This document shows, one piece after another, positions 4,551-29,835 of a DNA stretch of 29,835 bases. The stretch comes from a virus. How positions within the stretch are numbered: position 1 is the stretch's first letter; every line of letters begins with the position of its first letter. The stretch is from IMG/VR virus record IMGVR_UViG_3300020204_003390, positions 1 through 29,835 of that record, one strand, 5' to 3'. Under the pieces are notes generated by a model, which worked only from the letters and a program-made list of their open reading frames with translations, had not been told where the DNA came from and ran no database searches. A program made the position numbers and the translations under genes.

Positions 4551-7500
4551 CTATTGTGCTTTGATAATATAATGAAGAGTAATATAAGCACTCAGTGGAT
4601 CTACAGTCATAGTTGCAACATCATTAATTGTAGCTGTTGCAATCGAAACTCCAGTAGATGAAATTGAAGTAGTAGTTCCTGGAGGAGTTAACGTAACTCC
4701 TGTTAAAGAAACTGTTCTCGTAAAAGATCCTCCATGATTATGTGGTTGTCCATTATCAGTTGGAGAACTCTGAGAACCACTCATAAAGTAACCTCTGATT
4801 GCTCCAGAAACTCCTTCACAACAACCACCAATTCCATTACAGTTCTGACAATTAGATCTACAACCATTTGCAGTGCAATTTCCACCTCTACATGTTACAC
4901 TATTAGAATTATTGGCATAATACTCTGCGGCATTTTGTACACTATGAGAGTGGGCAATAAATTCATCTTGACCAAAAGCTCTGCCAATAATATTTACAGT
5001 CGCCGATGGACTAGTTCTTGTTACTGTTCCTCCAGAACGAGTTCCAGAAATATTTGTAACTCCAGTATGTGTCCAAGTTGCATCACAATTTGCAGTGATA
5101 GAAGTATTATATGCAGATGGTGATGAAGTAACTGTTCCGCCAGGAGCATTTAAATATTTTGCTCTTAAATCAGGAACTCCAAAAGTTTTACTGCTAGCAG
5201 CATAAGGGAAAGGATCGCCCGCTACTACAGTTCCTCCATGAGTGTTGAGCAATACTTTTGCTAATCTAGGATATGTAGATGCTGGATGTGTAGATCCATT
5301 GCATAGCAACCATCCATCTGGAGGAGTATCTTCTCCCCAAACAACTATAGTGCCAACATCTAAATTATTCAATCCATTTACACTGTGGTAATACTTAGGA
5401 GCAGATACAAGTACCGTACCTGGAGGTAAAATAGATAATGTTGCTGGTGGATCTGAATTAGTTGTTACAGTTCCAGATGGATAATTTGGAGTGCTTACTC
5501 TTACTCTATATTTGTAATTATTTTGAGTAGCATTGATGCTTGATAGGGATAAATTCTGAGACGTTGCGCCGCTAATATTAAAGAAGTCACTGTTTGCGGT
5601 TCCTCCAGTAGATTCTTGCCACTGATAAGTAACAGTAGCACCATTATTTGCTACTGCAGTAGATTCAAATACCAATGGATTTGCATTAGTAATCTCAGCA
5701 ACAGTTTTTGCTGCGCTGACTGGTAAAGTTGTAAATGAAATTGAAATAGGATTTACAGTAAGTTTTGCTTGATTACTATAAGTTACTACATTTAGAGATC
5801 CATTTCCATATACAGCAGTGACTTTACATCTATAGACATAATTGTTCCATCCAGATTGAGCAGTGAATGCTAGCGAGTTTGTGAGTGCTCCACTAGTAAA
5901 TGATGCTGAATTTCCAATGTCAACGAACAATCCGTCAGCTAAAGGATTTGTTGCAGACCAAGTAGATGTAGCAGCTACTGTGCTCTGTTGCCACGAGAAT
6001 TGTAAGTCTTCTGCGTTTGTTGCAGATGCACTGACAATGAAGCTTCCAGATTGACCTGCAACCACTGCAGTATTTGATGGTTGTCCACTTATCGTAATAA
6101 CTGGTACTGGATAGATAAGAATATTAACTCTAATAACAGAAGAATATAATGTAGCAGCTCCTGGAGATGTAAGAACAACTTGATAGTATGCATCATCACC
6201 TGTTAATGGACCAGTAGCAGTAACACCATTTAATGTTAATGTTGGTGTTTGGGCTCCTGTACCACCACCAGATACTGTCCAAGAACCATTCTGAGCAATT
6301 GTAGTAATTGCAGGATCAATGTTCGTTACATACCAGTGAATAAATCTTCCGTTTGGATTTGTAGGAGAAACTGGTGCAGATGCATCCAAATCTTCTACTA
6401 AAAGCTCAAATTTAGTAATATTTGATGCTGAGAACCCAGATAGTGTCCAACTAATTGTAGGACTATCTCCTGCAGAAGCAGATGTAGATCCATACTGAGA
6501 AGGAATATCACCACCAAACGCCCAATATGGACTAGTAACAGTAATGGTTCTTCCCAGTCCAGCAGTATCTGTGGTTAATCCTGTTGGTATGCTAGGAGTA
6601 GGTTTAGTTCCACTACCAAAATATCCATAATAATATCCAGTTACTGTTCCATTACTTGTAAATGCTTTTACTCTAAATTGATAGAGATGTTTTTCACCAG
6701 CTGGAGGATTTGGACCATTCCATCCATTAGATCTATCTGCTGGGGATCCAGCAAATGATGTTTGATAGATAGTAGCAACAATTGCAGACGAAGTAGAATT
6801 AGCAATGTTTTGCCACGATGAACTGCTATTATTTGTTGCAGCTGCTACATCATATGTCTTTCTCCACTGATATGCTATTGCTCCTGGACCAGTAACACTT
6901 GCAGTGACACTTAATGTATTATTTGTCGAAATCGTAAATGATTGAGGTGATGTTGTAAGATTACTAATAAAAATTTGAGGAGCATTAACAGTAAGAATTG
7001 CAATCTGACTATTAATTGGAGTAATTCCAGAAGCAGATAATCTAACTCTATACTTAAAATTATTTTGTGCTGCAGTTATATTTGTTAGAGTTAATCCAGC
7101 GTTAATGGACCCAATCATATCTTGGAACCCATTGCCATCATTTTGATCAACTTGCCATTGATATAAAACTGTCGCGCCATTGCTGGCAATTGCAATAACG
7201 TCAATAGTAGTATTTTCTCCTACAGTAACCGTTGGACTTGTTACATTTTGAATAATACTAATGGTAGAAGCATTAACAGCAAGCTGGGCAACTTGCGAAA
7301 TAGTTACTGGAGCACCAGAAGCAGTAAGAACACAACGATAATTGTATCCAGAGAATTGTGTAGTTACACTAGATATTGTTAAAGTGGTTGTTCCTTGCCC
7401 AGAATAAGTGCTATCATTGATAATGGTCGTCCAATTTGTTCCACCGTCAATAGAAACTTCCCATGAATAATTAATTGTTACTGGAGCATTAGCAGCAATT

Positions 7501-10496
7501 GTGAATGTAGCGTTCGTCCCCGAAAATACATTTGTTGATTGTGGTTCTTGAGTAATAGTTAGAGCATTTGCGCTAATAGTTCCAGAAACAGTCCCAGAAA
7601 TTGCGGGTTTTGCATTTTCCTTTACATCTGTTACAATACATCTAAAATAATAATTTACATTAGTCAAGTTGGTGGGAAATACTGCACTATTAAGTCTTAA
7701 TGTATTTGTAGTTCCTGTTTTAACTATGGATGTAGTTCCACCTGGAACACTAACTTCAAGTAACTGCCAATTTAATTCCAAAGCTTCTCCCCATTGATCT
7801 TCTGTTGGAGGAGAAAATCCTTCAAAATACTGCCATCTATAACGAATATCTGCAGATGGTACAGTTGTAGTAACTCCAAGTGGGAAGAATAATTCTGATC
7901 CCAATAGTCCACTTTGATTTGGAGGAGTTTGTAAAGTAAATGTAGGAGCATCAGCTTCAGATGCTTTTAGTTGGTCCCAAATTAAAGTAGAAACAGTAGA
8001 TCCCAAACTTGGAAGAGGATGATACTTATCGGTTGTAACTAAACTATTCTGTAGTGTGGCAACATCTCCAACATTATCATGAACTAATTTTGTAAGATTT
8101 ATAAAACCAGTATCTTTATATCCAGCAGTCCATCTTGCATCAGAAACTTCTTTCATTGCTTCTGCTACTTGATCTATGTTAGCAGCATCATATGCATAGG
8201 TAGTAGTCGAATATGCACTTGATTGGAATAAAATATCAGCATTTTGTCTGGTAAAATCTGTAGGTTCATTTGTCAAATCAGCAGTTAATTGCTGCGACAA
8301 AGTTATAATATTACCAGAAATATTCGTAATCGTAGTGTTTGGTTGAATACCAATTCCAGATTGAGTTACCACGGACATTCCATTACTTAATCCATTTGTG
8401 TTATTAACTTCAATGGTATTTGTAAGGAGAAGTCCAGTAACATTTTTAGTTACCGTAGTAGAAATATTAGCAGATAATGATTGACTAATATTTACAGTTG
8501 TTCCAGAAATACTAGTTACTGTAGTTCCATTAGCAACTCCGTTTCCACTAACACTCATTCCCTGCACTAAGTTAGTGGTGTTATTAACTGTGATTGCAGT
8601 AGTTCCAGCAGTTCCACTTCCAGTCTTAGTTTCATTTACAGCAGGAAAATTATTAATAATTGGATTTGGATCTCGAATTTGATATGGAGAGACAAGTACA
8701 ATTTTTATAAAATCTGACGATGGAGCAAGTACAGTTCCTTCCGAAGTTGTTGTCTGGAATGTTATATTCCACGCAGAAGCAATCTTGTTGACTAAAGTTT
8801 CTAAATTTGTTTTAATTTGAGACTTTGTTCTTCCATTAATAACATCCTGAGCACCCAAACAAATGAATACTATGTTCCATCCAAAAACTTCAAAATAAGA
8901 ATTAAATGCAGATTGAGTGACTTGAGAATATTCTTGAATTGAAAGATTATCTCTTCCTATTCCATGAAGAATATTACCCTTCATTTGGTTGCCAGTAAAT
9001 ACTCTGTTCAACGCATTTCGATCAGAGTAAATTTGTACATGGGATAATCCAAATGTATCTTTTTCTGAGAATGAAATTGTTTTGACAAAAGATATGCTAG
9101 CAGCACTTAAAGAACCAGTAATAACTTTATCTAATTCTAATGTAAAGTAGTCTTGAGGACTTCCAGTAAAATCAAGATTTGCATTTTCAAAAGTAGAAAT
9201 ACCAACCAATGTAGTTGCAGATGGAATATTTGTTCCAGAAACTTCAAGTCCAGTGAACAATCCATCCGTATTCCCAGTAAATACTAAACTTCCTCCAGTT
9301 AGTGTTGATGTTGCTGTTGCGGTAGCTCCTGTATTATTTGGAGCAGATACAGTAATTGTAGGAGCAGATGTATATCCACTGCCAGGATTATTAACAGAAA
9401 ATCCAATTACGGTTTGACTATCTGGATCGATAATTGCAGTAACTTGTGCAGTTAATCCACCAGCAATTTGAGGAGCACTTACAGTAACATTTGGCGTAGT
9501 CGTATATCCAAGTCCAGCATTTGATATCAATACATTTGATACCGATTGACCTCCAGCAGAATATACAGTTTTATTGATATTAATAGAAGATGGAAGTTGT
9601 AATACAGATCCAAAATCATCTACCGATCCATCATCAATTACTGCGCCATCAACGTCTCTGAATGAATAAAGTTGCCATCCATTAGATGTAGTATTAATGT
9701 TATATGATCTACCCGAAGAATATAATCCAGCATTATTTAAATTCCTAACTTTATAACTTCCTGTAGAAAATGGAAGTAGTCTATCGTTTCTATGTAAAAA
9801 TATTCCTGTAGTTAATGTCTTTGCTGCTGGATTAGATACAGTTACTGCACCAGTAATTTGATTGGTTGGTGTAGATAATAGTGTAGAAACTGGACTATAT
9901 CCTACACCAGTATATTGTCCAAATACTCTGGGTGCTTTGAAAATCGTAACATCATTTGAGAAACTATATGTAGTTGCTGCTGATGGAGGAACAAGAGCAA
10001 CATAATCGCACATATGAGCAAAACCACTACCAAATGGGTGATTGCTCAATGTATTAGTAACGTTAGGATCTACTGGTTGGTTTGGGTCAATATATCCACT
10101 ATTAGTTGCGACTTGGTAAGTTCTTGGAGTATAACCAGTAAGAGTACTTGATAGTGATGGCACTTCAATATCAACACCAATTCTTGATGCGGCGTCAAGT
10201 GCAGCATTTTGAAATGTTGTTTGAGGATTACTGCCAGGAATTAAATCTGTGCTAGTATCCTTGATGTTTAACAAATAGTTTGCAGATACACCAGCTCCGA
10301 CCAAGAAAGTATTAGCGTCAGAGTTAAAATTCCAATTGACGAAATTATATGAGAAAAATCCACCATAGGGACGGTACAAAACACCATCCCCAATAAACAA
10401 AATTCTGTTATAAAAATAATTCGGAAGTTGATATCTGATCTTTAAAAATGCAGGGTGTAAATTTACCCTTGTCTGCGATGGTCCAGTAAATGCCAT
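4551..10496 (-). CDS. Giant multidomain tail fibre (1981 aa): SGNH-like, Ig-like, PEBP-like and collar modules
   Basis: Domains in order. Residues 30-845 have an SGNH-hydrolase-like layout: block I ILFIGDG at 32-38 (Gly where the nucleophile Ser is expected), block II-like GIGRDN near 512, block III CLGAQD at 546-551 and block V DKYH at 823-826. Long beta insertions interrupt it, including GYTTTP/GYTSAP repeats at 330-380 and a duplicated segment at 620-740. Residues 850-1170 hold about three Ig-like repeats with YxWxV...YKYRVR/YNYRC strands. A divergent Ig unit spans 1170-1295, a PEBP/YbhB-like domain 1316-1445, and two more Ig-like units 1465-1690. A tail-collar domain (DGWLLCNGS...FGVPDLRAKYL) covers 1714-1790, followed by a tip with seven Cys at 1869-1893. 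ATG is 3 bases after the upstream stop, with GGAGGT overlapping the end of the previous gene. The role is host adhesion; any enzymatic role is uncertain. Confidence 0.9.
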   Translation of the reverse strand: MAFTGPSQTRVNLHPAFLKIRYQLPNYFYNRILFIGDGVLYRPYGGFFSYNFVNWNFNSDANTFLVGAGVSANYLLNIKDTSTDLIPGSNPQTTFQNAALDAASRIGVDIEVPSLSSTLTGYTPRTYQVATNSGYIDPNQPVDPNVTNTLSNHPFGSGFAHMCDYVALVPPSAATTYSFSNDVTIFKAPRVFGQYTGVGYSPVSTLLSTPTNQITGAVTVSNPAAKTLTTGIFLHRNDRLLPFSTGSYKVRNLNNAGLYSSGRSYNINTTSNGWQLYSFRDVDGAVIDDGSVDDFGSVLQLPSSININKTVYSAGGQSVSNVLISNAGLGYTTTPNVTVSAPQIAGGLTAQVTAIIDPDSQTVIGFSVNNPGSGYTSAPTITVSAPNNTGATATATSTLTGGSLVFTGNTDGLFTGLEVSGTNIPSATTLVGISTFENANLDFTGSPQDYFTLELDKVITGSLSAASISFVKTISFSEKDTFGLSHVQIYSDRNALNRVFTGNQMKGNILHGIGRDNLSIQEYSQVTQSAFNSYFEVFGWNIVFICLGAQDVINGRTKSQIKTNLETLVNKIASAWNITFQTTTSEGTVLAPSSDFIKIVLVSPYQIRDPNPIINNFPAVNETKTGSGTAGTTAITVNNTTNLVQGMSVSGNGVANGTTVTSISGTTVNISQSLSANISTTVTKNVTGLLLTNTIEVNNTNGLSNGMSVVTQSGIGIQPNTTITNISGNIITLSQQLTADLTNEPTDFTRQNADILFQSSAYSTTTYAYDAANIDQVAEAMKEVSDARWTAGYKDTGFINLTKLVHDNVGDVATLQNSLVTTDKYHPLPSLGSTVSTLIWDQLKASEADAPTFTLQTPPNQSGLLGSELFFPLGVTTTVPSADIRYRWQYFEGFSPPTEDQWGEALELNWQLLEVSVPGGTTSIVKTGTTNTLRLNSAVFPTNLTNVNYYFRCIVTDVKENAKPAISGTVSGTISANALTITQEPQSTNVFSGTNATFTIAANAPVTINYSWEVSIDGGTNWTTIINDSTYSGQGTTTLTISSVTTQFSGYNYRCVLTASGAPVTISQVAQLAVNASTISIIQNVTSPTVTVGENTTIDVIAIASNGATVLYQWQVDQNDGNGFQDMIGSINAGLTLTNITAAQNNFKYRVRLSASGITPINSQIAILTVNAPQIFISNLTTSPQSFTISTNNTLSVTASVTGPGAIAYQWRKTYDVAAATNNSSSSWQNIANSTSSAIVATIYQTSFAGSPADRSNGWNGPNPPAGEKHLYQFRVKAFTSNGTVTGYYYGYFGSGTKPTPSIPTGLTTDTAGLGRTITVTSPYWAFGGDIPSQYGSTSASAGDSPTISWTLSGFSASNITKFELLVEDLDASAPVSPTNPNGRFIHWYVTNIDPAITTIAQNGSWTVSGGGTGAQTPTLTLNGVTATGPLTGDDAYYQVVLTSPGAATLYSSVIRVNILIYPVPVITISGQPSNTAVVAGQSGSFIVSASATNAEDLQFSWQQSTVAATSTWSATNPLADGLFVDIGNSASFTSGALTNSLAFTAQSGWNNYVYRCKVTAVYGNGSLNVVTYSNQAKLTVNPISISFTTLPVSAAKTVAEITNANPLVFESTAVANNGATVTYQWQESTGGTANSDFFNISGATSQNLSLSSINATQNNYKYRVRVSTPNYPSGTVTTNSDPPATLSILPPGTVLVSAPKYYHSVNGLNNLDVGTIVVWGEDTPPDGWLLCNGSTHPASTYPRLAKVLLNTHGGTVVAGDPFPYAASSKTFGVPDLRAKYLNAPGGTVTSSPSAYNTSITANCDATWTHTGVTNISGTRSGGTVTRTSPSATVNIIGRAFGQDEFIAHSHSVQNAAEYYANNSNSVTCRGGNCTANGCRSNCQNCNGIGGCCEGVSGAIRGYFMSGSQSSPTDNGQPHNHGGSFTRTVSLTGVTLTPPGTTTSISSTGVSIATATINDVATMTVDPLSAYITLHYIIKAQ

Positions 10497-17122: not shown

Positions 17123-17389
17123 TTAATCGTCTTTAGGAAGCAATTCAGGATTTTCAACTTCTATATCATACATTAAAGGATGCATTCCCTCCATGACAAG
17201 ATAGTTAGAATATCTGAATAAATCCTCATCATCAAAGTCATGGTGTTGAAGTGCTTCCAATTGTACTGAGGGGTGATCTTGTATAATCTGAGGTAATTCG
17301 TCAAACGTATATGGAACACCTTGAATGAAATACATTCTCACGACCTGTCCCATGTAGAAACAATATGATTGAGATAATGTGTATTTCAT
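17123..17389 (-). CDS. Small unrecognised protein (88 aa) between two tRNA genes
   Basis: An acidic 88-residue protein beginning MKYTLSQSYCFYMGQVVRMYF. It contains VPYTFDELPQIIQDHP, a DFDDEDLFRYS acidic stretch and a C-terminal PELLPKDD. It has no signal peptide and no recognised domain. The open frame continues upstream through tRNA-Leu, so I chose the ATG at 17387-17389, the first after the tRNA; a GGGAAA lies just upstream, a weak ribosome site. It sits between tRNA-Leu (36 bases upstream) and tRNA-Thr (1 base downstream) in a unit headed by a consensus sigma70 promoter. This suggests early expression, unlike its structural neighbours. The function is unknown. Confidence 0.7.
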   Translation of the reverse strand: MKYTLSQSYCFYMGQVVRMYFIQGVPYTFDELPQIIQDHPSVQLEALQHHDFDDEDLFRYSNYLVMEGMHPLMYDIEVENPELLPKDD

Positions 17390-17425
17390 AACATTTCCCG
17401 ATACCTTTTTATTTAGTAACGAGAA

Positions 17426-17509
17426 TAGGGCGAGGGGGACTTGAACCCCCACGGGATTGCTCCCAACAGATTTTAAGTCTGGTGTGTCTACCACTTCCAC
17501 CACCGCCCC
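17426..17509 (-). tRNA. tRNA-Leu (anticodon UAA)
   Basis: A class II tRNA on the minus strand. The acceptor is GGGGCGG with TCGCCCT (terminal G-U pairs) and the discriminator is A, as expected for Leu. The D stem is GTG/CAC with GAAGTGGTAGA loop. The anticodon arm is CCAGA/TCTGT with loop CTTAAAA (anticodon TAA, reading UUA), with one C-U mismatch at the first pair. The long variable arm is GGGA/TCCC, and the T stem is GGGGG/CCCCC with TTCAAGT loop. CCA is not encoded. The 5' end is only 13 nt downstream of a perfect -10 box. Confidence 0.93.
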
Positions 17510-17522
17510 GTGGTATGCAGTA

Positions 17523-17551
17523 ATTATACCATGTGCCCAGCACCGTGTCAA
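17523..17551 (-). promoter_or_regulatory. Perfect-consensus sigma70 promoter of the tRNA unit
   Basis: The minus strand carries TTGACA (17546-17551), a 17-nt spacer and TATAAT (17523-17528), the ideal sigma70 promoter. The TGA inside the -35 box is the stop codon of the upstream beta-helix spike gene. Initiation would fall about 6 nt before tRNA-Leu. The unit then reads tRNA-Leu, the 88-aa ORF, tRNA-Thr and the terminator. Host polymerase could transcribe it from the start of infection, independently of late transcription. Confidence 0.92.
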
Positions 17552-18774: not shown

Positions 18775-21700
18775 TCAGGGGCAATCAACGTATTTAGCGG
18801 CTGGCGCAGTTCTTGCTTTTTCAGTAATTACAACACCTGTCTCTTCTCTAGGAACACAACTCAACTGACCTATTGCTCGTGCTCCAGAACCAGCATTCTC
18901 ATCAATGATTTGAATTGCTGGTATTGTATCGTAATCAAATGTGTCATCAATCACTTCGATGCCAGTTATATATCCATTCTCAACAATAGCAGATGCTACC
19001 TTTGAATTGCCATCAACGTAAACTTTTGGATTAGTATATTTTGCTCCAGGAGTTAAAACAATAATTTCAATTAATTTGCAATAATATAATTCATCTTTCT
19101 GAATATCTCCAGTATATGAAAGACCAGGATCTAATACTTGAACTTCAGTCAATTTTCCTCTGTTATCAATAACAGTTTTAACTGTTGCTCCAAATCCATC
19201 ACCTTCGATCAATGCAACTGGAGGACGTTCATATAGAAAATCTCCTGGGGTTACAGGAATATTAATAATTCTACCAAATCGATCAACAATTATTTGTGCT
19301 GATGGAGGAATTGGTTTTGGAAAACTAACCTGCGACGGAACAACTATCTGTGGAGTAGTAGATGGAGCATCAATTAAAACTGTTGTAGATACTCCAGTTG
19401 CTACTAAAGTAAAGACTAAAGTTTCGTCTGCTTCTAAATCATCACCATCATCGGCAATTGTAATTGGAACTACTCCCTGGTTGTTGTTAATTGTCACCAA
19501 ACCAGACAATGCACCGCCAACAATATCATTAGAGGTAATGTTAGCACCAGATATGCTATACGAAAATACCGTTCCGTCTGGAATATTTGTAGTGTAAATA
19601 TTAACATCAAAACTCTCGCCTTCTACAACTTTTTGCTTGCTTGGCACTAATGCATATGTTGGAGATGTGCTTATTGGTGTAACTGGTGCGGGCACACTAT
19701 TTCCTACGTCAGTAATAGGAACACTTCTTGACACAGTATTTCCATTGGGAAGATTAACTAAAGTAATTGTAATATATTCATTTTCAGATAGACTATCCGA
19801 GGCAATCACAAAAGGAATTGTTGCCGAATTGCTACTAATACTAACCGATCCATTGAAACTAGTAAGACCAACTACATCTGCTAGATTATCAATTCCGCTA
19901 ACCTGATAATCTATGATCGTTCCGTCTGGAACATTAGTAGTGATAACACTAAAAGTAACCGCATCACCCTCTTTTACTGAACTTTTATCTGCAAATAAAC
20001 TAAAGGAAGAAGCAGAAGCTGCTGCAGCCAAAGCAGGTGCAATGGGAACTACTGGGGCAACAACTGCAGCGCCCCCACCAGGAGCAACTGCTGGACTAAA
20101 CGCCTGAATGTAAATTACACCATCGCTATTATCTACTACTCCATATGCATCATTAGATGTAATTCTAACATAAAATTCTTCTTGAGTGCTAGTTCCATTA
20201 GCTAAAGTTTGAACCGAGATAGTTTTACTAACCTCTCCAACTGAAAATCCTAGTGTTCCATTTGTCGAAGTATAATCTCCCCCAATAGATGATGCAGTGC
20301 CATCACTAGTTGTATACTGTAGGGAAGAAATATTGTCCGCTACTCCAGGACCATAACGAGTTACAGTAAGAGTAGCAAGGTCTCCTTCAGTAACTGTTGT
20401 ACTGTTAATTGAATATCTAACTTCTTGTGAAGTAGTTGGAGATCCAATAATTGTCAGGGTTGTTCCTGTTGCTGGATCTGTAATCGGATTAGTATATGCC
20501 TCATCGCAAAATGCGGTTGGTGTTGCTTGCGGATTTGACGACAGAGAATTTATAATCGAATCCAAAGTATCGTATCCTGGAGGTTGTTTTTCCTTTTTAG
20601 ATTTAAATGGATCTAAACAAACAGCTTCATACTCATCACAAGCTTCTGCTCCTGGATCAGTACAAGATATACCTAAAAGTTTCAGTCCAGCACCAAAAGC
20701 TGCCTGCAAAGGATCAAGACCAGCATTCAATCCAGATAAAATCGATGAAGTAAATGATAATACTTGTGTTGTTATTTGCGAAGTTAATCCCGATAAAAAT
20801 CCAAGAATACTATTAACAATATTATTGATAGCACAAATTGCTGGGTTTAAAATTTGATCTAGTAAATCACGAACCAATGATTGCAAATAATCCGTAAGTT
20901 GCTCCTGCAATGACATCATTGAACACCCAACAGAATCTAAAAGTTGATCAAAAGTTTTGACTAAACTCTTCAATACACCAGTTTTTGGATTGAGAAGTAA
21001 ATCGACAAGATCTTTAATTCCAGCATCAATCTTTGCATACAAATAACCAAATACGGAACTGTATGCAAGATTTATAATGGAAGAGATTTTGTCAATGTAA
21101 CCAGTTGCAATGGCAGTAGCTTTGTAAATTTTATTCGTAATGGGACTTAGTAATCTATCTCCAGCTGGTTGTCCACTTGATACCGCATAAAATAATTGTT
21201 TTAACTGATATGTTAACGTTCTCCTTAGTTTATCTTCTGGTTTACAATCACTAGCCATCTCTTGACAGCGTGATAATCCAGCATCATTGCCGCCTAAACT
21301 CCATGGAGCTTTACAAACACCAGTCATGAATGGTGTTAGTCTTTCATCTCTACTTGTTTTATCTTGTTTATTGCCTGGCGTTCTTCCCTTTGGAGCTGGT
21401 TGTTCTTCAGCATACTGATGCTTATGTGGTAATGAATTTGGAGAAAGATACGTGTTAAATTCTAGTTCAGTTTGGTCTGGGTTTTGGTTGTTTCGTAAAT
21501 CTTCGGTCTGCGAAAGTGCAGTTCTATTCACAGACCCAATAACTAGGGGCTGCTGCATTTCATCATCATCTAGATAAAAACCAACTACCCAATCTCCCTC
21601 TTGCAAGGCACAAGTAGATGATCCACCACCAACACTTTGCTCTACGTTGGTTGGAGATAATACATGTGCATAAGGAAGATCTACAGTTTTAAGTTTAGTA

Positions 21701-21852
21701 GCAGCTGCTGGATGCCTTCCAACAATTCTAACCTTAACTCGGTTAGAAGTTTTACCATCTTTATCTGCTGGCTGCTCAACCTGACCAATCCACCACTTAA
21801 ATCCATCGTTTCCGATGCTATGTGTTTTACCAAAAAAACTAGTATCTAACAT
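18775..21852 (-). CDS. 5: gp5-like baseplate hub protein with OB fold, helical insert and Calx-beta-like repeats (1025 aa)
   Basis: Residues 15-110 form a gp5/VgrG-type OB-fold: WWIGQVEQ, then NRVKVRIVGRHP, LPYAHVLSPT and EGDWVVGFYLDDDEMQQPLVIGSV. In T4 this domain is followed by a lysozyme. Here I see no lysozyme catalytic pattern; residues 205-400 are instead long amphipathic helices. Three Calx-beta-like modules follow at about 475-585, 615-715 and 730-830, each with an EGD/EGE acidic start and a strand pattern ending in an E-rich turn. Then comes a beta-rich C-terminal part (850-1000) with GxG/VLDPGLSYTG motifs. The protein should join the gp27-like ring and guide the spike. ATG 21850-21852 is 5 bases after the CP12-like stop. 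The symbol refers to the T4 counterpart of the N-terminal domain only; overall architecture differs. Confidence 0.8.
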   Translation of the reverse strand: MLDTSFFGKTHSIGNDGFKWWIGQVEQPADKDGKTSNRVKVRIVGRHPAAATKLKTVDLPYAHVLSPTNVEQSVGGGSSTCALQEGDWVVGFYLDDDEMQQPLVIGSVNRTALSQTEDLRNNQNPDQTELEFNTYLSPNSLPHKHQYAEEQPAPKGRTPGNKQDKTSRDERLTPFMTGVCKAPWSLGGNDAGLSRCQEMASDCKPEDKLRRTLTYQLKQLFYAVSSGQPAGDRLLSPITNKIYKATAIATGYIDKISSIINLAYSSVFGYLYAKIDAGIKDLVDLLLNPKTGVLKSLVKTFDQLLDSVGCSMMSLQEQLTDYLQSLVRDLLDQILNPAICAINNIVNSILGFLSGLTSQITTQVLSFTSSILSGLNAGLDPLQAAFGAGLKLLGISCTDPGAEACDEYEAVCLDPFKSKKEKQPPGYDTLDSIINSLSSNPQATPTAFCDEAYTNPITDPATGTTLTIIGSPTTSQEVRYSINSTTVTEGDLATLTVTRYGPGVADNISSLQYTTSDGTASSIGGDYTSTNGTLGFSVGEVSKTISVQTLANGTSTQEEFYVRITSNDAYGVVDNSDGVIYIQAFSPAVAPGGGAAVVAPVVPIAPALAAAASASSFSLFADKSSVKEGDAVTFSVITTNVPDGTIIDYQVSGIDNLADVVGLTSFNGSVSISSNSATIPFVIASDSLSENEYITITLVNLPNGNTVSRSVPITDVGNSVPAPVTPISTSPTYALVPSKQKVVEGESFDVNIYTTNIPDGTVFSYSISGANITSNDIVGGALSGLVTINNNQGVVPITIADDGDDLEADETLVFTLVATGVSTTVLIDAPSTTPQIVVPSQVSFPKPIPPSAQIIVDRFGRIINIPVTPGDFLYERPPVALIEGDGFGATVKTVIDNRGKLTEVQVLDPGLSYTGDIQKDELYYCKLIEIIVLTPGAKYTNPKVYVDGNSKVASAIVENGYITGIEVIDDTFDYDTIPAIQIIDENAGSGARAIGQLSCVPREETGVVITEKARTAPAAKYVDCP

Positions 21853-21857
21853 GTTGT

Positions 21858-22067
21858 TCAGTCTTCGTAAATTTTACATTCAGCAGCGTCTGGATGATCA
21901 TCACAAAATAATTCTAGAGGTGTAGGATCATGTTCATCTTGTGGATGTCTGTCATGATACCTTTTTAATCTTTCTAGCTCGTCTTCAATATGACGACGAC
22001 GTTGAGAATTGATATTAGGATCGTCAAGTTCGTTACGATCTCTTTCGATGTGATCTTTAATAGACAT
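21858..22067 (-). CDS. cp12: CP12-like small protein (69 aa) in the baseplate operon
   Basis: The C-terminus PLELFCDDHPDAAECKIYED matches the CP12 signature, in which PLE..CD..P...EC..Y.D contains the C-terminal redox cysteine pair. Here Cys55 and Cys64 have the canonical spacing of eight residues. The upstream charged helix has IEDELERL near 27-34, resembling the EEL helix of CP12 but without Ala-Trp-Asp and without the N-terminal cysteine pair. Host CP12 inhibits GAPDH and PRK to close the Calvin cycle, and cyanophages are known to carry cp12 genes. ATG 22065-22067 has AGGAGA 10 bases upstream, overlapping the end of the gp27-like gene. Its position between two hub genes means late co-expression, which is odd for a metabolic gene. 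A structural or chaperone role cannot be excluded. Confidence 0.75.
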   Translation of the reverse strand: MSIKDHIERDRNELDDPNINSQRRRHIEDELERLKRYHDRHPQDEHDPTPLELFCDDHPDAAECKIYED

Positions 22068-22079
22068 TTAATTAGTCTC

Positions 22080-23549
22080 CTAAGTGTTTGGTACTGAATT
22101 ACCAGTCATACCATAAGAATCTCTCATAGCTTCAATGATACATGTGCTTTCAAATGGATTTCTACTAAAATTATAACACACAGATCCAACTAAATATGCT
22201 CCACTGTGAATTCTATCAATTGGGTCTGCTTGTTTTTGTTCGTCGTTATCGTATGTCATTTTTGGTATCATTATATTTATTTTACTACCAGCGCGAATTG
22301 TTAGATTTCCAGGCACAATTACACTGAGTTTTTGCGATTCTAATAGTTTTTTCCTAGTAAGAGTTTGCGACATGTACTCTTTCTGCCAATCCAGAAACTG
22401 CCCACCCCCAGAAGTAGTAGTTGATGATCCATCACTAGGTCTTGCTGGTTCATCGGTTCCAGTAAACCACGCCTCATCATTTACTACTTTTGACATAATA
22501 CGAGTAGGGTATTTTGCAAGTTCCCTATGTATTTCTGGAATTCCTGAAGCAGATCCAATATGACCCATTTTAGAATAAGTATCTGGCAATCTGTATATTT
22601 GTTCAGAATATTTTCCAGTATTAATATCAAAGAAGCATATAACACTAGACAAAGTTCCAAATCTCAGTTTGTGTGCTAAGTCTAAATCAGAAAGATATGA
22701 ATAGTTTAAAATTCTATACTGATCATCATTTGCAGTTTTAGAGTTGGCAAGAGAATATGAATAAGTAGCCACTGGATCTTCTCCCTTAAACCCAGATGCA
22801 GACCCAGAAGCAGATGCTCTTAAAGATAATAAGGTATCAATTGATTTGAATACAAATTTATCATATGTCTCAAAAAATAGATATCCAGCCGTCCCAGATC
22901 CTTGCAAAACTTTCTCGGGGTTTTGTCCTATATCAGTGCCAGAATCTGCTGTGGCAGATCCACCACTTGATGTTTTTGCTGCATTAGGAATTGCTCGGTT
23001 TGCGTACATTCCAATCAATTCATATGGTCGCTTCATCATTCCATTGATCTGCTGGTTATACTTACTAGTTTCAAAATCAATGGTTTTTGTAGTAACTTTA
23101 AGGTATTCTTTAAGAATTTTATCGACTGCAGCTTCTGCTTTTCCTTTTATAGCAATTCCTACTCTAACTCCTTCATTAATAAATGATTCTGCTGTGCATA
23201 AATGAATTGTGTATACTTGTGAATTATTGTTGACAACTCTATTTGTTATTTTGTAAACGTAAAATGTGTAAGAATATACTTTAACATCAGTAAATAATGT
23301 TTTTAATTTGAAGGTCACTTTTTCATATCCATGAATAGGCAACGAAGAAATCATATTCTTACCAGAATCTACTACGTCAATCTGTGCCGTCATGAATGGC
23401 ATATAGACACTTTCATATATTCTAATACCAGTATAAATTTCTTTTATGTCTAACGGAGCAGCATAAGAAGACCCACTAAGAGGATATAGTTTTAACTCCT
23501 CCAATTCGTAAGATTTTTGTGATCCATGTCCCGAAGTTTCGTTAGCCAT
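22080..23549 (-). CDS. 27: gp27-like baseplate hub protein (489 aa)
   Basis: The protein has no signal peptide and a tail-hub pattern. An N-terminal domain with LDIKEIYTGIRIYESVYMPF and AQIDVVDSGKN (33-65) is followed by paired beta strands VTFKLKTL and YTFYVYKITNR. Next comes the C-terminal motif of LTRKKLLESQKLSVIVPG, then RAGSKINIMIP and the SGAYLVGSVCYNFSRNPFEST ending. This resembles T4 gp27 and P2/VgrG hub rings, which connect the tail tube to the OB-fold of gp5. ATG 23547-23549 lies 1 base after the upstream stop with no clear Shine-Dalgarno sequence, suggesting coupling. It lies directly before the CP12-like and gp5-like genes. The symbol is given by structural analogy, and confidence in exact orthology is moderate. 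Confidence 0.7.
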   Translation of the reverse strand: MANETSGHGSQKSYELEELKLYPLSGSSYAAPLDIKEIYTGIRIYESVYMPFMTAQIDVVDSGKNMISSLPIHGYEKVTFKLKTLFTDVKVYSYTFYVYKITNRVVNNNSQVYTIHLCTAESFINEGVRVGIAIKGKAEAAVDKILKEYLKVTTKTIDFETSKYNQQINGMMKRPYELIGMYANRAIPNAAKTSSGGSATADSGTDIGQNPEKVLQGSGTAGYLFFETYDKFVFKSIDTLLSLRASASGSASGFKGEDPVATYSYSLANSKTANDDQYRILNYSYLSDLDLAHKLRFGTLSSVICFFDINTGKYSEQIYRLPDTYSKMGHIGSASGIPEIHRELAKYPTRIMSKVVNDEAWFTGTDEPARPSDGSSTTTSGGGQFLDWQKEYMSQTLTRKKLLESQKLSVIVPGNLTIRAGSKINIMIPKMTYDNDEQKQADPIDRIHSGAYLVGSVCYNFSRNPFESTCIIEAMRDSYGMTGNSVPNT

Positions 23550-26624: not shown

Positions 26625-29600
26625 CTAATTATTTGCAAAAATTTGATGAGTAGATAGAGCCCATGGTTCCAAGTTTTTAGCGGATCCGCCATAACTAGGA
26701 TTTTTACTATCAGCACTAATTGGGGGTAAACTAGTAGTAATGATAGATGGTTGTGCAGTTACTTGTGATGAAGATGGTTTATTCTCCACTGGTGGTTTAG
26801 CACTTCCTGATTGCGGTGCTGCTGGTTTTGCTGGTTTAACTGCGGGCGCAGATGGTTTAACTGGAGCTGGTTTTGCTGGAGGATTGCCAACATTTTGCAA
26901 TCTTCTTCGCTCAGCTTCAAATCTATTCCCACCTCTAATATCTGCTACTGGTTTTGGTCTCCCAGAACTTTGATCATATTGTCTCAAATCAGCAGGATTA
27001 TAACGTCCACCTTCTTTAGAGGGAATATTACCTACTTTAGGTTTTGGTTTTTGAGTTAGTTTTTTAAACAACTCTATAGGTCCAGGAAGTAAAGTTGGCA
27101 ATCCAAATGGACCTCCTGCGGGACCAGTTGGTTTTGCTGGAGATGTTGCAGCAGGTTCAGTTCCTTCAGTAGCAGCAACTGGAGGATTAAATGATTGTAC
27201 TACTGCTTGAACTGAACTCATTGCTGGATTTGCTAAATTCATGAAGTCAGTTTTTGCTGCTTCAATTCTCTGCTCTGGAGTTGCATCTGGAGGTAATGCA
27301 GCAAGTGCAGATGTTGGGGCGGGAGATGATGGAGAAGATGGGGAACTGCCAGGAGGGGATGCATCTACTCCATCTCCTGGTTGAGGTTTTCCTGTAAATG
27401 GTGTCATATAATTATAACGACTTAATGGATCTATCCTTCCTGGATGCCCTTTAGGTCTTCCAGTGTCATTAGGATTTGCTGCCATCTCCCAATGTAAATG
27501 TGGTCCAGTAGATCTTCCTGCGCCTGGTGTTCCTGGTTCACCTCCAACTGCTCCTAATATTTTCCCCTTTTTGAAAGATAAACTCTTCTTAACTCCCTTT
27601 CCAAAAGCTGACATATGTGCATAAAGATGCCCCCATCCTTTACTGTCTGTCCAATAAACACTATTGCCATATCCTCCTGTTGTGCGTATATCTGTTACTT
27701 TACCGTCGTGAAAAGCATATAATGGAGTTCCCTGTGGAGCAGCAATATCAGTTCCTTCATGAAGATCTGATACTCCATTGATAGTTCGCGGTCCTTTTCT
27801 TGATGTAACAACAATTCCTCCCTTTGCCATCTGAGGATTTTTTTTCAGCGCATCTCTTGCTTTATCAATGTGCTGGTTCATTTTATCAGGATATGTTGTC
27901 CATGCGCCAAAATTTGATCCTCCAGACAATTTGTAAGCTATCTCTGCATTTGTAGCTGGATCAAATAAATCTTCATTTGATTTCAATCCGAATTTTTTTC
28001 TTCGCTCTTCGCCAAGCTTATAATCTGGTTTATCAATCATATTAATTTGCCATAAACCATAAGAGTTGTCCCCACCACCTCTCAAATAGTTGTCATTGTG
28101 TGCTCTAGGATTTCCTGTAGATTCTGCATATGCAACAGCCGCAGCCTTTGCAGCATTATCACCTTTAAATCCTGCTCCTTGTGCTATAGCAACTAATTCT
28201 TCTAGTTTCTTTTCTCCTCCAGGCACAGATCCACGACTTGATGGTTTTGAAGGGGGTTCTTGTGTTGCCTCTTCTTTTTCTGATGAACCAAGCATTCCAG
28301 CAATCATTCCTCCACCAGGAACTAATGCTTTCAATAAAATTTTTAAAAATTGAACACTTTGTTTTTTACTGTTTGCATCAGATCCACTTCCTCTGATTGC
28401 ACCACCAATATCAAATTTAACCAAACTTCCAGGAACGCCAAAAGTTTTTTCTAATGGACCAATCATTGCTCCCAACACTGGAGCAATAGCAGATCCAACT
28501 GGTCCCAATGCTTTAATAAATTGCCCCGAAATCGCAAGAATAGATCCTCCAATTGATTTCATCGGAAGAGACATTAAATCTTGCATTTGCGTTCCCATCA
28601 TATTAGTTTCACCTTTAGGTTCACTTTTAAATCCAGGAACCATAGATCCAAGACCAGTATCCATCAATTTAGATAGTGGCATTACAAGTTCTGGACCTGC
28701 TTCACCAGCTCTAAAGGTTGTAGGATTATCAACAATCCCACCTTCTGCCATTTGAGGAGTTCCACCTTTCGTGAGATCTCTACCCAATAAAGCAGCATCA
28801 ATTCCTAATGAAATGCCAGTTCCCAATCCAGGAACAGTAGAAGCAGCGCCAGAAGCGAATTCACCAGCAGCACCCAACCAATCTCCCTGCATTGCTCGTT
28901 GGATACCAAATCCAACACCAGCAATTGCACCTAAAATAGGTATTTTTTTAATAAGAGATTTTCCAGCACCTTTTGCTACTGCACCACCTGCCTTTGCACC
29001 TATTTTGGGTGCTAATTTTCCAACTCCACGTTGTATAGATTTAGGTACTATCTTTGAGGCAAGTCCCAATCCAGCACCGCCTAACGTTTTTGCAAGTGGC
29101 GATAATATCTTTCCACCAATCTTTCCTATTTGATTGGTTGCCTTCAACCCCCTCTTACCAAAAGCTGCAGCTGCTAATCTTCCTGGTGCTCTACCTAATC
29201 CTCTCGCAAAAACTTTAGAAGCAAAGTTTTTTATTCCAAAAATTCCGCCTCCTCCTCGTTTGTTATCGTTTTCTTCGTCTTGTTCGTATGGACTTTTTAC
29301 CTTTAGAATGTCAGCAGCATCTTGCTTTTCTTCTAAAGATTTTTCTATATCGCTATATTCTTGTGCTGCAAGTTGATCACGATTAACTTCTAAAATACTA
29401 CTACTAATTTTCAGAAGAGAATTATTAATAGTAACAATACTCTGAAGTAATTGATTACTATTTTGTAAACTTCCGCTCTGAACGGATAAAATTTTATTCT
29501 GTGTGCTGGCAATTCCCACCAGCGCATTTGTATTATTTACAATCGCACCTAATGAACCCGATAAAGTTTTAGGTTTTCTCTTTGGAGCATCTCCAGAAGG

Positions 29601-29835
29601 CAAAGCAGGAGCAGAAGACTTAGGTTTTCTAAGCGGTGTCTTCTTTAATTCTAAGGGGTTCTTAACTCCAGAAGAGGATAATTTATCTTGATATTTTCCG
29701 CTAAATTGATAACCAAGACCCTGCGAAAACAGAGATCCTGGTTTACCCTTGTACTCTTCTCCTTTATCGGCAGCTTCTTTTTGCAGTTCTTCACGCTTAG
29801 CTTTCGCTTGATCTGCAGCGGTCTTAATTTTTTTA
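26625..29835 (-). CDS. Tape-measure/tail-lysin protein with transglycosylase and M23 peptidase domains (5' end outside window)
   Basis: The open frame is visible to the window edge (1069 codons plus stop), and its beginning lies beyond 29835. Visible N-terminal segments KIKTAADQAKAKREELQKE and LGYQFSGKYQDK match the paralog 23551-26613. Next come Ala/Gly/Lys-rich hydrophobic helices and the tape-measure motif GGIVDNPTTFRAGEAGPELVMPL. A lysozyme-like SLT domain (28211-27800) has catalytic Glu in AYAES and NSYGLWQI. An M23/LytM domain (27810-27399) has HEGTD, HLYAH and GPHLHWE zinc/catalytic motifs. Both domains cut peptidoglycan, glycan and peptide bonds respectively. A long Pro/Ala/Ser-rich linker and tail follow, containing the 44-bp repeat. 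The likely role is tail tape measure or inner hub protein that opens the host wall, replacing the lysozyme missing from the gp5-like protein. The open frame extends past the TTG at 29601-29603, so that is not the start. Confidence 0.85.
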   Translation of the reverse strand, partial: KKIKTAADQAKAKREELQKEAADKGEEYKGKPGSLFSQGLGYQFSGKYQDKLSSSGVKNPLELKKTPLRKPKSSAPALPSGDAPKRKPKTLSGSLGAIVNNTNALVGIASTQNKILSVQSGSLQNSNQLLQSIVTINNSLLKISSSILEVNRDQLAAQEYSDIEKSLEEKQDAADILKVKSPYEQDEENDNKRGGGGIFGIKNFASKVFARGLGRAPGRLAAAAFGKRGLKATNQIGKIGGKILSPLAKTLGGAGLGLASKIVPKSIQRGVGKLAPKIGAKAGGAVAKGAGKSLIKKIPILGAIAGVGFGIQRAMQGDWLGAAGEFASGAASTVPGLGTGISLGIDAALLGRDLTKGGTPQMAEGGIVDNPTTFRAGEAGPELVMPLSKLMDTGLGSMVPGFKSEPKGETNMMGTQMQDLMSLPMKSIGGSILAISGQFIKALGPVGSAIAPVLGAMIGPLEKTFGVPGSLVKFDIGGAIRGSGSDANSKKQSVQFLKILLKALVPGGGMIAGMLGSSEKEEATQEPPSKPSSRGSVPGGEKKLEELVAIAQGAGFKGDNAAKAAAVAYAESTGNPRAHNDNYLRGGGDNSYGLWQINMIDKPDYKLGEERRKKFGLKSNEDLFDPATNAEIAYKLSGGSNFGAWTTYPDKMNQHIDKARDALKKNPQMAKGGIVVTSRKGPRTINGVSDLHEGTDIAAPQGTPLYAFHDGKVTDIRTTGGYGNSVYWTDSKGWGHLYAHMSAFGKGVKKSLSFKKGKILGAVGGEPGTPGAGRSTGPHLHWEMAANPNDTGRPKGHPGRIDPLSRYNYMTPFTGKPQPGDGVDASPPGSSPSSPSSPAPTSALAALPPDATPEQRIEAAKTDFMNLANPAMSSVQAVVQSFNPPVAATEGTEPAATSPAKPTGPAGGPFGLPTLLPGPIELFKKLTQKPKPKVGNIPSKEGGRYNPADLRQYDQSSGRPKPVADIRGGNRFEAERRRLQNVGNPPAKPAPVKPSAPAVKPAKPAAPQSGSAKPPVENKPSSSQVTAQPSIITTSLPPISADSKNPSYGGSAKNLEPWALSTHQIFANN
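26794..26837. repeat. 44-bp perfect direct repeat, copy 2
   Basis: The second copy of the tract at 23696-23739, placed in the C-terminal linker of the larger paralog. The copies are about 3.1 kb apart in the same orientation, which could support recombination removing or swapping the intervening gene portion. Confidence 0.95.

Follow-up and report, generated by a model that had tools for sequence, protein, structure and literature searches.

A full-length CP12 gene of picocyanobacterial type between the gp27-like and gp5-like hub genes of a cyanophage

The window analysed here is a stretch of 29,835 nucleotides, positions 1 to 29,835 of IMG/VR virus record IMGVR_UViG_3300020204_003390. At positions 21858-22067, on the minus strand, it carries an open reading frame, cp12, which encodes a protein of 69 residues, MSIKDHIERDRNELDDPNINSQRRRHIEDELERLKRYHDRHPQDEHDPTPLELFCDDHPDAAECKIYED, and matches the family phrog_627 (E 1.5e-24). 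Directly upstream lies a gene for a gp27-like tail/hub protein (22080-23549, minus strand; phrog_350 'tail protein', E 1e-99) and directly downstream a gp5-like baseplate hub gene (18775-21852, minus strand; phrog_1922, annotated 'baseplate hub subunit and tail lysozyme', E 7e-141, with Gp5_OB below cut-off). The three genes share one strand and are tightly packed, with 12 nt between the gp27-like stop and the cp12 start and 5 nt between the end of cp12 and the gp5-like start; cp12 and the hub genes probably share a transcript. The Pfam and PHROG matches confirm the sequence-only reading of this DNA, which had placed a CP12-like gene between gp27-like and gp5-like hub genes at these same coordinates.

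Other genes of the window were characterized alongside. In the gp5-like protein, which has 1025 residues, residues 486-567 match a Calx-beta domain at 39.7 bits (cut-off 27). This domain is of a receptor or adhesion type and is unexpected for T4 gp5. Upstream of the hub genes, the product of 26625-29603 (minus strand) combines an M23 peptidase with an SLT_3 lysozyme-like domain in one protein and is probably a tail-borne cell-wall enzyme. The 1981-residue product of 4551-10496 (minus strand) carries a Collar domain together with an Ig domain and, at residues 1331-1416, a phosphatidylethanolamine-binding protein domain (PF01161). A tRNA-Leu gene (anticodon taa) was found at 17426-17509 (minus strand), within ORF 17123-17551 (phrog_4134), the true start of which is therefore probably further downstream; this region matches the tRNA clusters of S-CAM1, S-RSM4 and S-H9-1.

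The 69-residue protein belongs to the CP12 family: it scores 52.5 bits against the Pfam CP12 profile (PF02672, cut-off 22.7, E 9e-14) and covers profile positions 2-70 of 70. Against a profile built from the CP12s of picocyanobacterial hosts it reaches 77.5 bits, compared with 9.9 bits at most for 2,000 shuffled versions of its sequence, and it is 45-48% identical to host CP12 over its length. Its C-terminal part reads TPLELFCDDHPDAAECKIYED and holds the cysteine pair Cys55/Cys64 with the C-x8-C spacing of the GAPDH-binding segment. Neither a third cysteine nor any tryptophan occurs anywhere in the 69 residues, so that both the N-terminal cysteine pair and the AWD_VEE core motif, the traits of canonical, green-lineage CP12 (PMC3906501), are absent. 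The protein thus fits the C-only class, forms of which are already known from cyanobacteria and cyanophages (reviewed in PMC3906501). The same absences characterize the hosts: all 65 distinct CP12s of Prochlorococcus and marine Synechococcus possess the C-terminal cysteine pair, and all 65 lack the N-terminal pair and AWD_VEE.

The sequence-only reading had described a C-terminal CP12 signature with exact cysteine spacing and no N-terminal cysteine or tryptophan motif, which is correct, but it had confined the likeness to the C-terminus. When scored separately against the host profile, residues 1-48 reach 39.1 bits and residues 49-69 reach 29.5 bits. The suggestion of a repurposed 'CP12 tail' was accordingly rejected, because the N-terminal half is itself homologous to host CP12 and the picocyanobacterial hosts lack the same features. 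The gene encodes a full-length CP12 of picocyanobacterial type, and its phylogenetic link to CP12, which that reading had proposed to check, is clear.

A short ORF whose relatives many annotators have left as 'hypothetical protein' could in principle be a chance reading frame or a decaying remnant. The gap between 77.5 bits and the best shuffle, together with homologues across 384 phage records, refutes this, and so does the pattern of substitution. The nearest IMG/VR relative encodes a protein 91% identical to the window CP12, and the comparison of the two genes yields a dN of 0.036 and a dS of 1.12, hence a dN/dS of about 0.03, so that purifying selection on the protein is strong. We regard a chance or decaying ORF as practically out of the question.

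The segment that would contact GAPDH was compared with known complexes. Residues 49-69, encoded at 21861-21923 (minus strand), align by phmmer with the CP12 of the cyanobacterial GAPDH complexes 3zdf and 6gfo; in the alignment to 3zdf, TPLELFCDDHPDAAECKIYED of the window protein faces TSFQQYCDDNPDAAECRIYDD. A structure model computed from 37 aligned sequences shows three helices with a mean pLDDT of 93. Its top three Foldseek matches are all CP12 chains from GAPDH complexes of cyanobacteria (6ghr, 6ghl and 6gfq_C), with weak E values of 0.05 to 0.85. The model superimposes on the bound tail of 6gfq_C with a deviation of 1.3 Å over 22 columns, at 59% identity. VIA-align Z values were low throughout (2.4 for the CP12 chain 6kez_M), as expected because the protein is short and helical.

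Compared with the CP12s of isolated cyanophages (T4-GC 337/63, PMC3037559; phrog_627), such as those of S-RIM4, S-T4, Syn9 and S-SSM5, the window protein shares the family, the length, the C-terminal residues and the place downstream of a gp27-like gene. Its identity to isolate proteins does not exceed 65%, however, and in the window neither cpeT nor tRNA cargo separates cp12 from gp5. Homology to picocyanobacterial host CP12 extends over the whole length, although most host proteins have 72 residues and a middle loop two residues longer than that of the window CP12. With the canonical plant and cyanobacterial CP12s (6gfo/3zdf, 6kez) it has the C-terminal GAPDH-binding segment in common, whereas their N-terminal cysteine pair and AWD_VEE core are found in neither the window protein nor the host ones. 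The sequence is thus new, while the gene is an ordinary cyanophage cp12, whose kind and 'near gp5' site have been known since 2010 (PMC3037559).

The genomic position of cp12 was surveyed in other viruses. By tblastn, the window CP12 matched 384 phage records, at one place per record, whose names are those of Synechococcus and Prochlorococcus phages, cyanophages and marine viruses (7). Among 204 virus loci, which were fetched with three related queries, partly share contigs and had their starts called mechanically, a gp27-like gene lies within 300 nt upstream of cp12 in 170, and in 169 of these gp5 also follows downstream. In 141 of the 172 loci with gp5, the start of this gene is at most 15 nt away from the cp12 stop; other cargo intervenes in the remaining 31, and in isolates this cargo includes cpeT, tRNA-Val, a 2OG oxygenase and small genes. 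The order gp27-like, cp12, gp5 is therefore a conserved synteny and the commonest arrangement in the fetched virus loci. It is not universal. In P-HM1 the gene lies beside talC, and in S-TIM5 talC, ptoX and gnd are close by; S-SRM01 and S-SKS1 have it among small genes, and in P-TIM68 it precedes a baseplate wedge gene. Variable positions, near psbA or 'near gp5', were already reported by Sullivan et al. (2010, PMC3037559), who found cp12 in 15 of 16 T4-like cyanophages.

In a tree of 88 CP12 sequences, which rests on 70 columns and leaves many forks unsettled, the host proteins group in a single clade of their own (100/100) and the phage addresses are mixed, the hub label changing 12 times, at least 4 of which are forced by the starred branches. 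A division into two CP12 lineages, one hub-sited and one metabolic, was rejected, as there is one place per phage record and the addresses are mixed on the tree. The C-terminal residues are equally conserved in hub-sited (121), other-sited (27) and host (65) CP12s.

These data make it very probable that the window gene is a cyanophage cp12, a host-derived auxiliary metabolic gene encoding a GAPDH-binding inhibitor of the Calvin cycle, and that its place between the gp27-like and gp5-like genes reflects the commonest cp12 site of T4-like cyanophages, not membership of the hub. The sequence-only reading had also considered a CP12 acting in the virion, and the recurrent position in 169 of 204 loci, with gp5 so close behind, could be taken to mean that the protein has been repurposed as a virion or hub-assembly part that binds the gp27-like or the gp5-like protein and no longer acts on GAPDH. 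This was not supported. In P-HM1 the gp27-like gene (PHM1_021, T4-GC 15) overlaps gp5 (PHM1_022) with no gene between them, which shows that the hub needs no adjacent CP12 in that phage. Moreover, hub-sited and other-sited copies, intermixed on the tree, keep the host-type residues alike. While T4-GC15 is a virion protein found experimentally, CP12 is classed under carbon metabolism (PMC3037559).

The phage S-SZBM1, in which the gene order is gp27-like, cp12, 2OG oxygenase, cpeT, gp5, has a published table of 30 virion proteins that includes the gp27-like SSZBM1_65 and a protein of 87 residues but not CP12 (PMC9146016). The negative is weak, since the same table omits gp5, which the text calls detected (PMC9146016), and S-SZBM1 is a different phage from that of the window; a small protein may also escape virion proteomics. 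Similarly, the S-SCSM1 record marks gp5 and not CP12 as a virion protein, with the same reservation for small proteins. Altogether we judge a virion or hub-assembly role for CP12 highly improbable. We give as little credence to a variant in which CP12, made together with the hub proteins, is packaged in low copy number and injected, so that the next infection would impair host carbon fixation from its first minutes.

Binding to GAPDH and PRK and inhibition of the Calvin cycle are attributed to the window CP12 by homology and from published work, in which phage cp12 is described as a Calvin-cycle inhibitor expressed during infection (PMC3037559; PMC5082946; PMC9723779). As is proposed for picocyanobacterial CP12, the C-terminal helix and the Cys-Cys loop would most likely bind Calvin-cycle GAPDH, perhaps with PRK joining GAPDH. 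Carbon fixation would then be slowed and carbon directed through the pentose phosphate pathway, the flux of which would supply NADPH and pentoses for phage nucleotides. Binding of PRK in particular may be weak or absent in a protein with neither N-terminal cysteines nor an AWD_VEE core.

The position of cp12 among late-type genes raises the question of its timing. Late expression is plausible judging from gene order, but it would be odd for a metabolic switch, as cp12 of the measured relative P-HM2 belongs to the middle transcription cluster and is highly expressed in the light (PMC5082946). This is the only cp12 timing found in the accessible literature, and P-HM1, a close relative of P-HM2, has its cp12 next to talC and not at the hub. 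S-SSM5, in which cp12 is hub-sited, expresses the gene in infection (PMC9723779).

We searched the window for the cyanomyovirus late promoter motif, NATAAATA (PMC2984593). A candidate of this type, AATAAATA, lies inside the gp27-like gene at 22274-22281 (minus strand), 207 nt upstream of cp12. The exact heptamer ATAAATA is depleted in the window, with 3 occurrences, all on the coding strand, for 11.3 expected on both strands; one is located 46 nt ahead of the tail-fibre gene (2,137 aa) and another about 207 nt ahead of cp12. Scarcity of the heptamer away from promoter-like positions would agree with a genuine late promoter signal. The site at 22274 also encodes conserved protein sequence, however, and is only suggestive of a late promoter. 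No late-type motif occurs close upstream of cp12 in the window; a scan allowing one mismatch was near chance, and a sigma-70 promoter scan was uninformative (27 sites for 30.6 expected). Elsewhere, a late-type motif is present within 100 nt upstream of cp12 in 34 of 127 hub-sited loci, compared with 0-10 in control tiles, an enrichment that is only suggestive because these loci are related; by sequence cluster the count is 9 of 31.

A tentative reading of these patterns is that the same CP12 function is used late, together with the hub genes, so that carbon fixation is suppressed only as infection reaches its final phase and the hub site has been selected for its timing. The tight same-strand spacing, the candidate site in the gp27-like gene and the motif enrichment at other hub-sited copies are consistent with it. 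On the other hand, the measured phage gene is middle, separate promoters may exist in phages whose cp12 is hub-sited, most clusters do not carry the motif, and that of the window lies at a distance in conserved coding sequence. We consider late use quite possible, though less likely than not; it does not conflict with a GAPDH-binding Calvin-cycle inhibitor. Phage CP12 is one of the proteins believed to shut down the carbon fixation of picocyanobacteria during infection, and the place and time of its synthesis thus bear on models of carbon flux in the ocean. The survey finds the commonest cp12 address between two late-type hub genes, whereas the 'middle' timing comes from P-HM2, whose relative P-HM1 is talC-sited. 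Whether hub-sited copies keep the middle timing is a question that is cheap to test.

The survey also returned loci outside phage records. An assembly of Nonlabens xiamenensis (Bacteroidota; NZ_RMVE01000006.1) bears a cyanophage-type gp27-like, cp12, cpeT region on one contig (L054), probably owing to phage contamination of the culture or the assembly, and two contigs of 'Euryarchaeota' MAGs (L063 and L123) resemble this case. Lastly, S-RIM44 and P-SSM5 encode very divergent CP12-like proteins (L292, 3857-4087; L293, 4833-5099), in which mainly the C-terminal part is recognizable and whose genes lie beside thyX or among small genes. These proteins would suit the idea of a 'CP12 tail' joined to a new N-terminus better than the window CP12 does.
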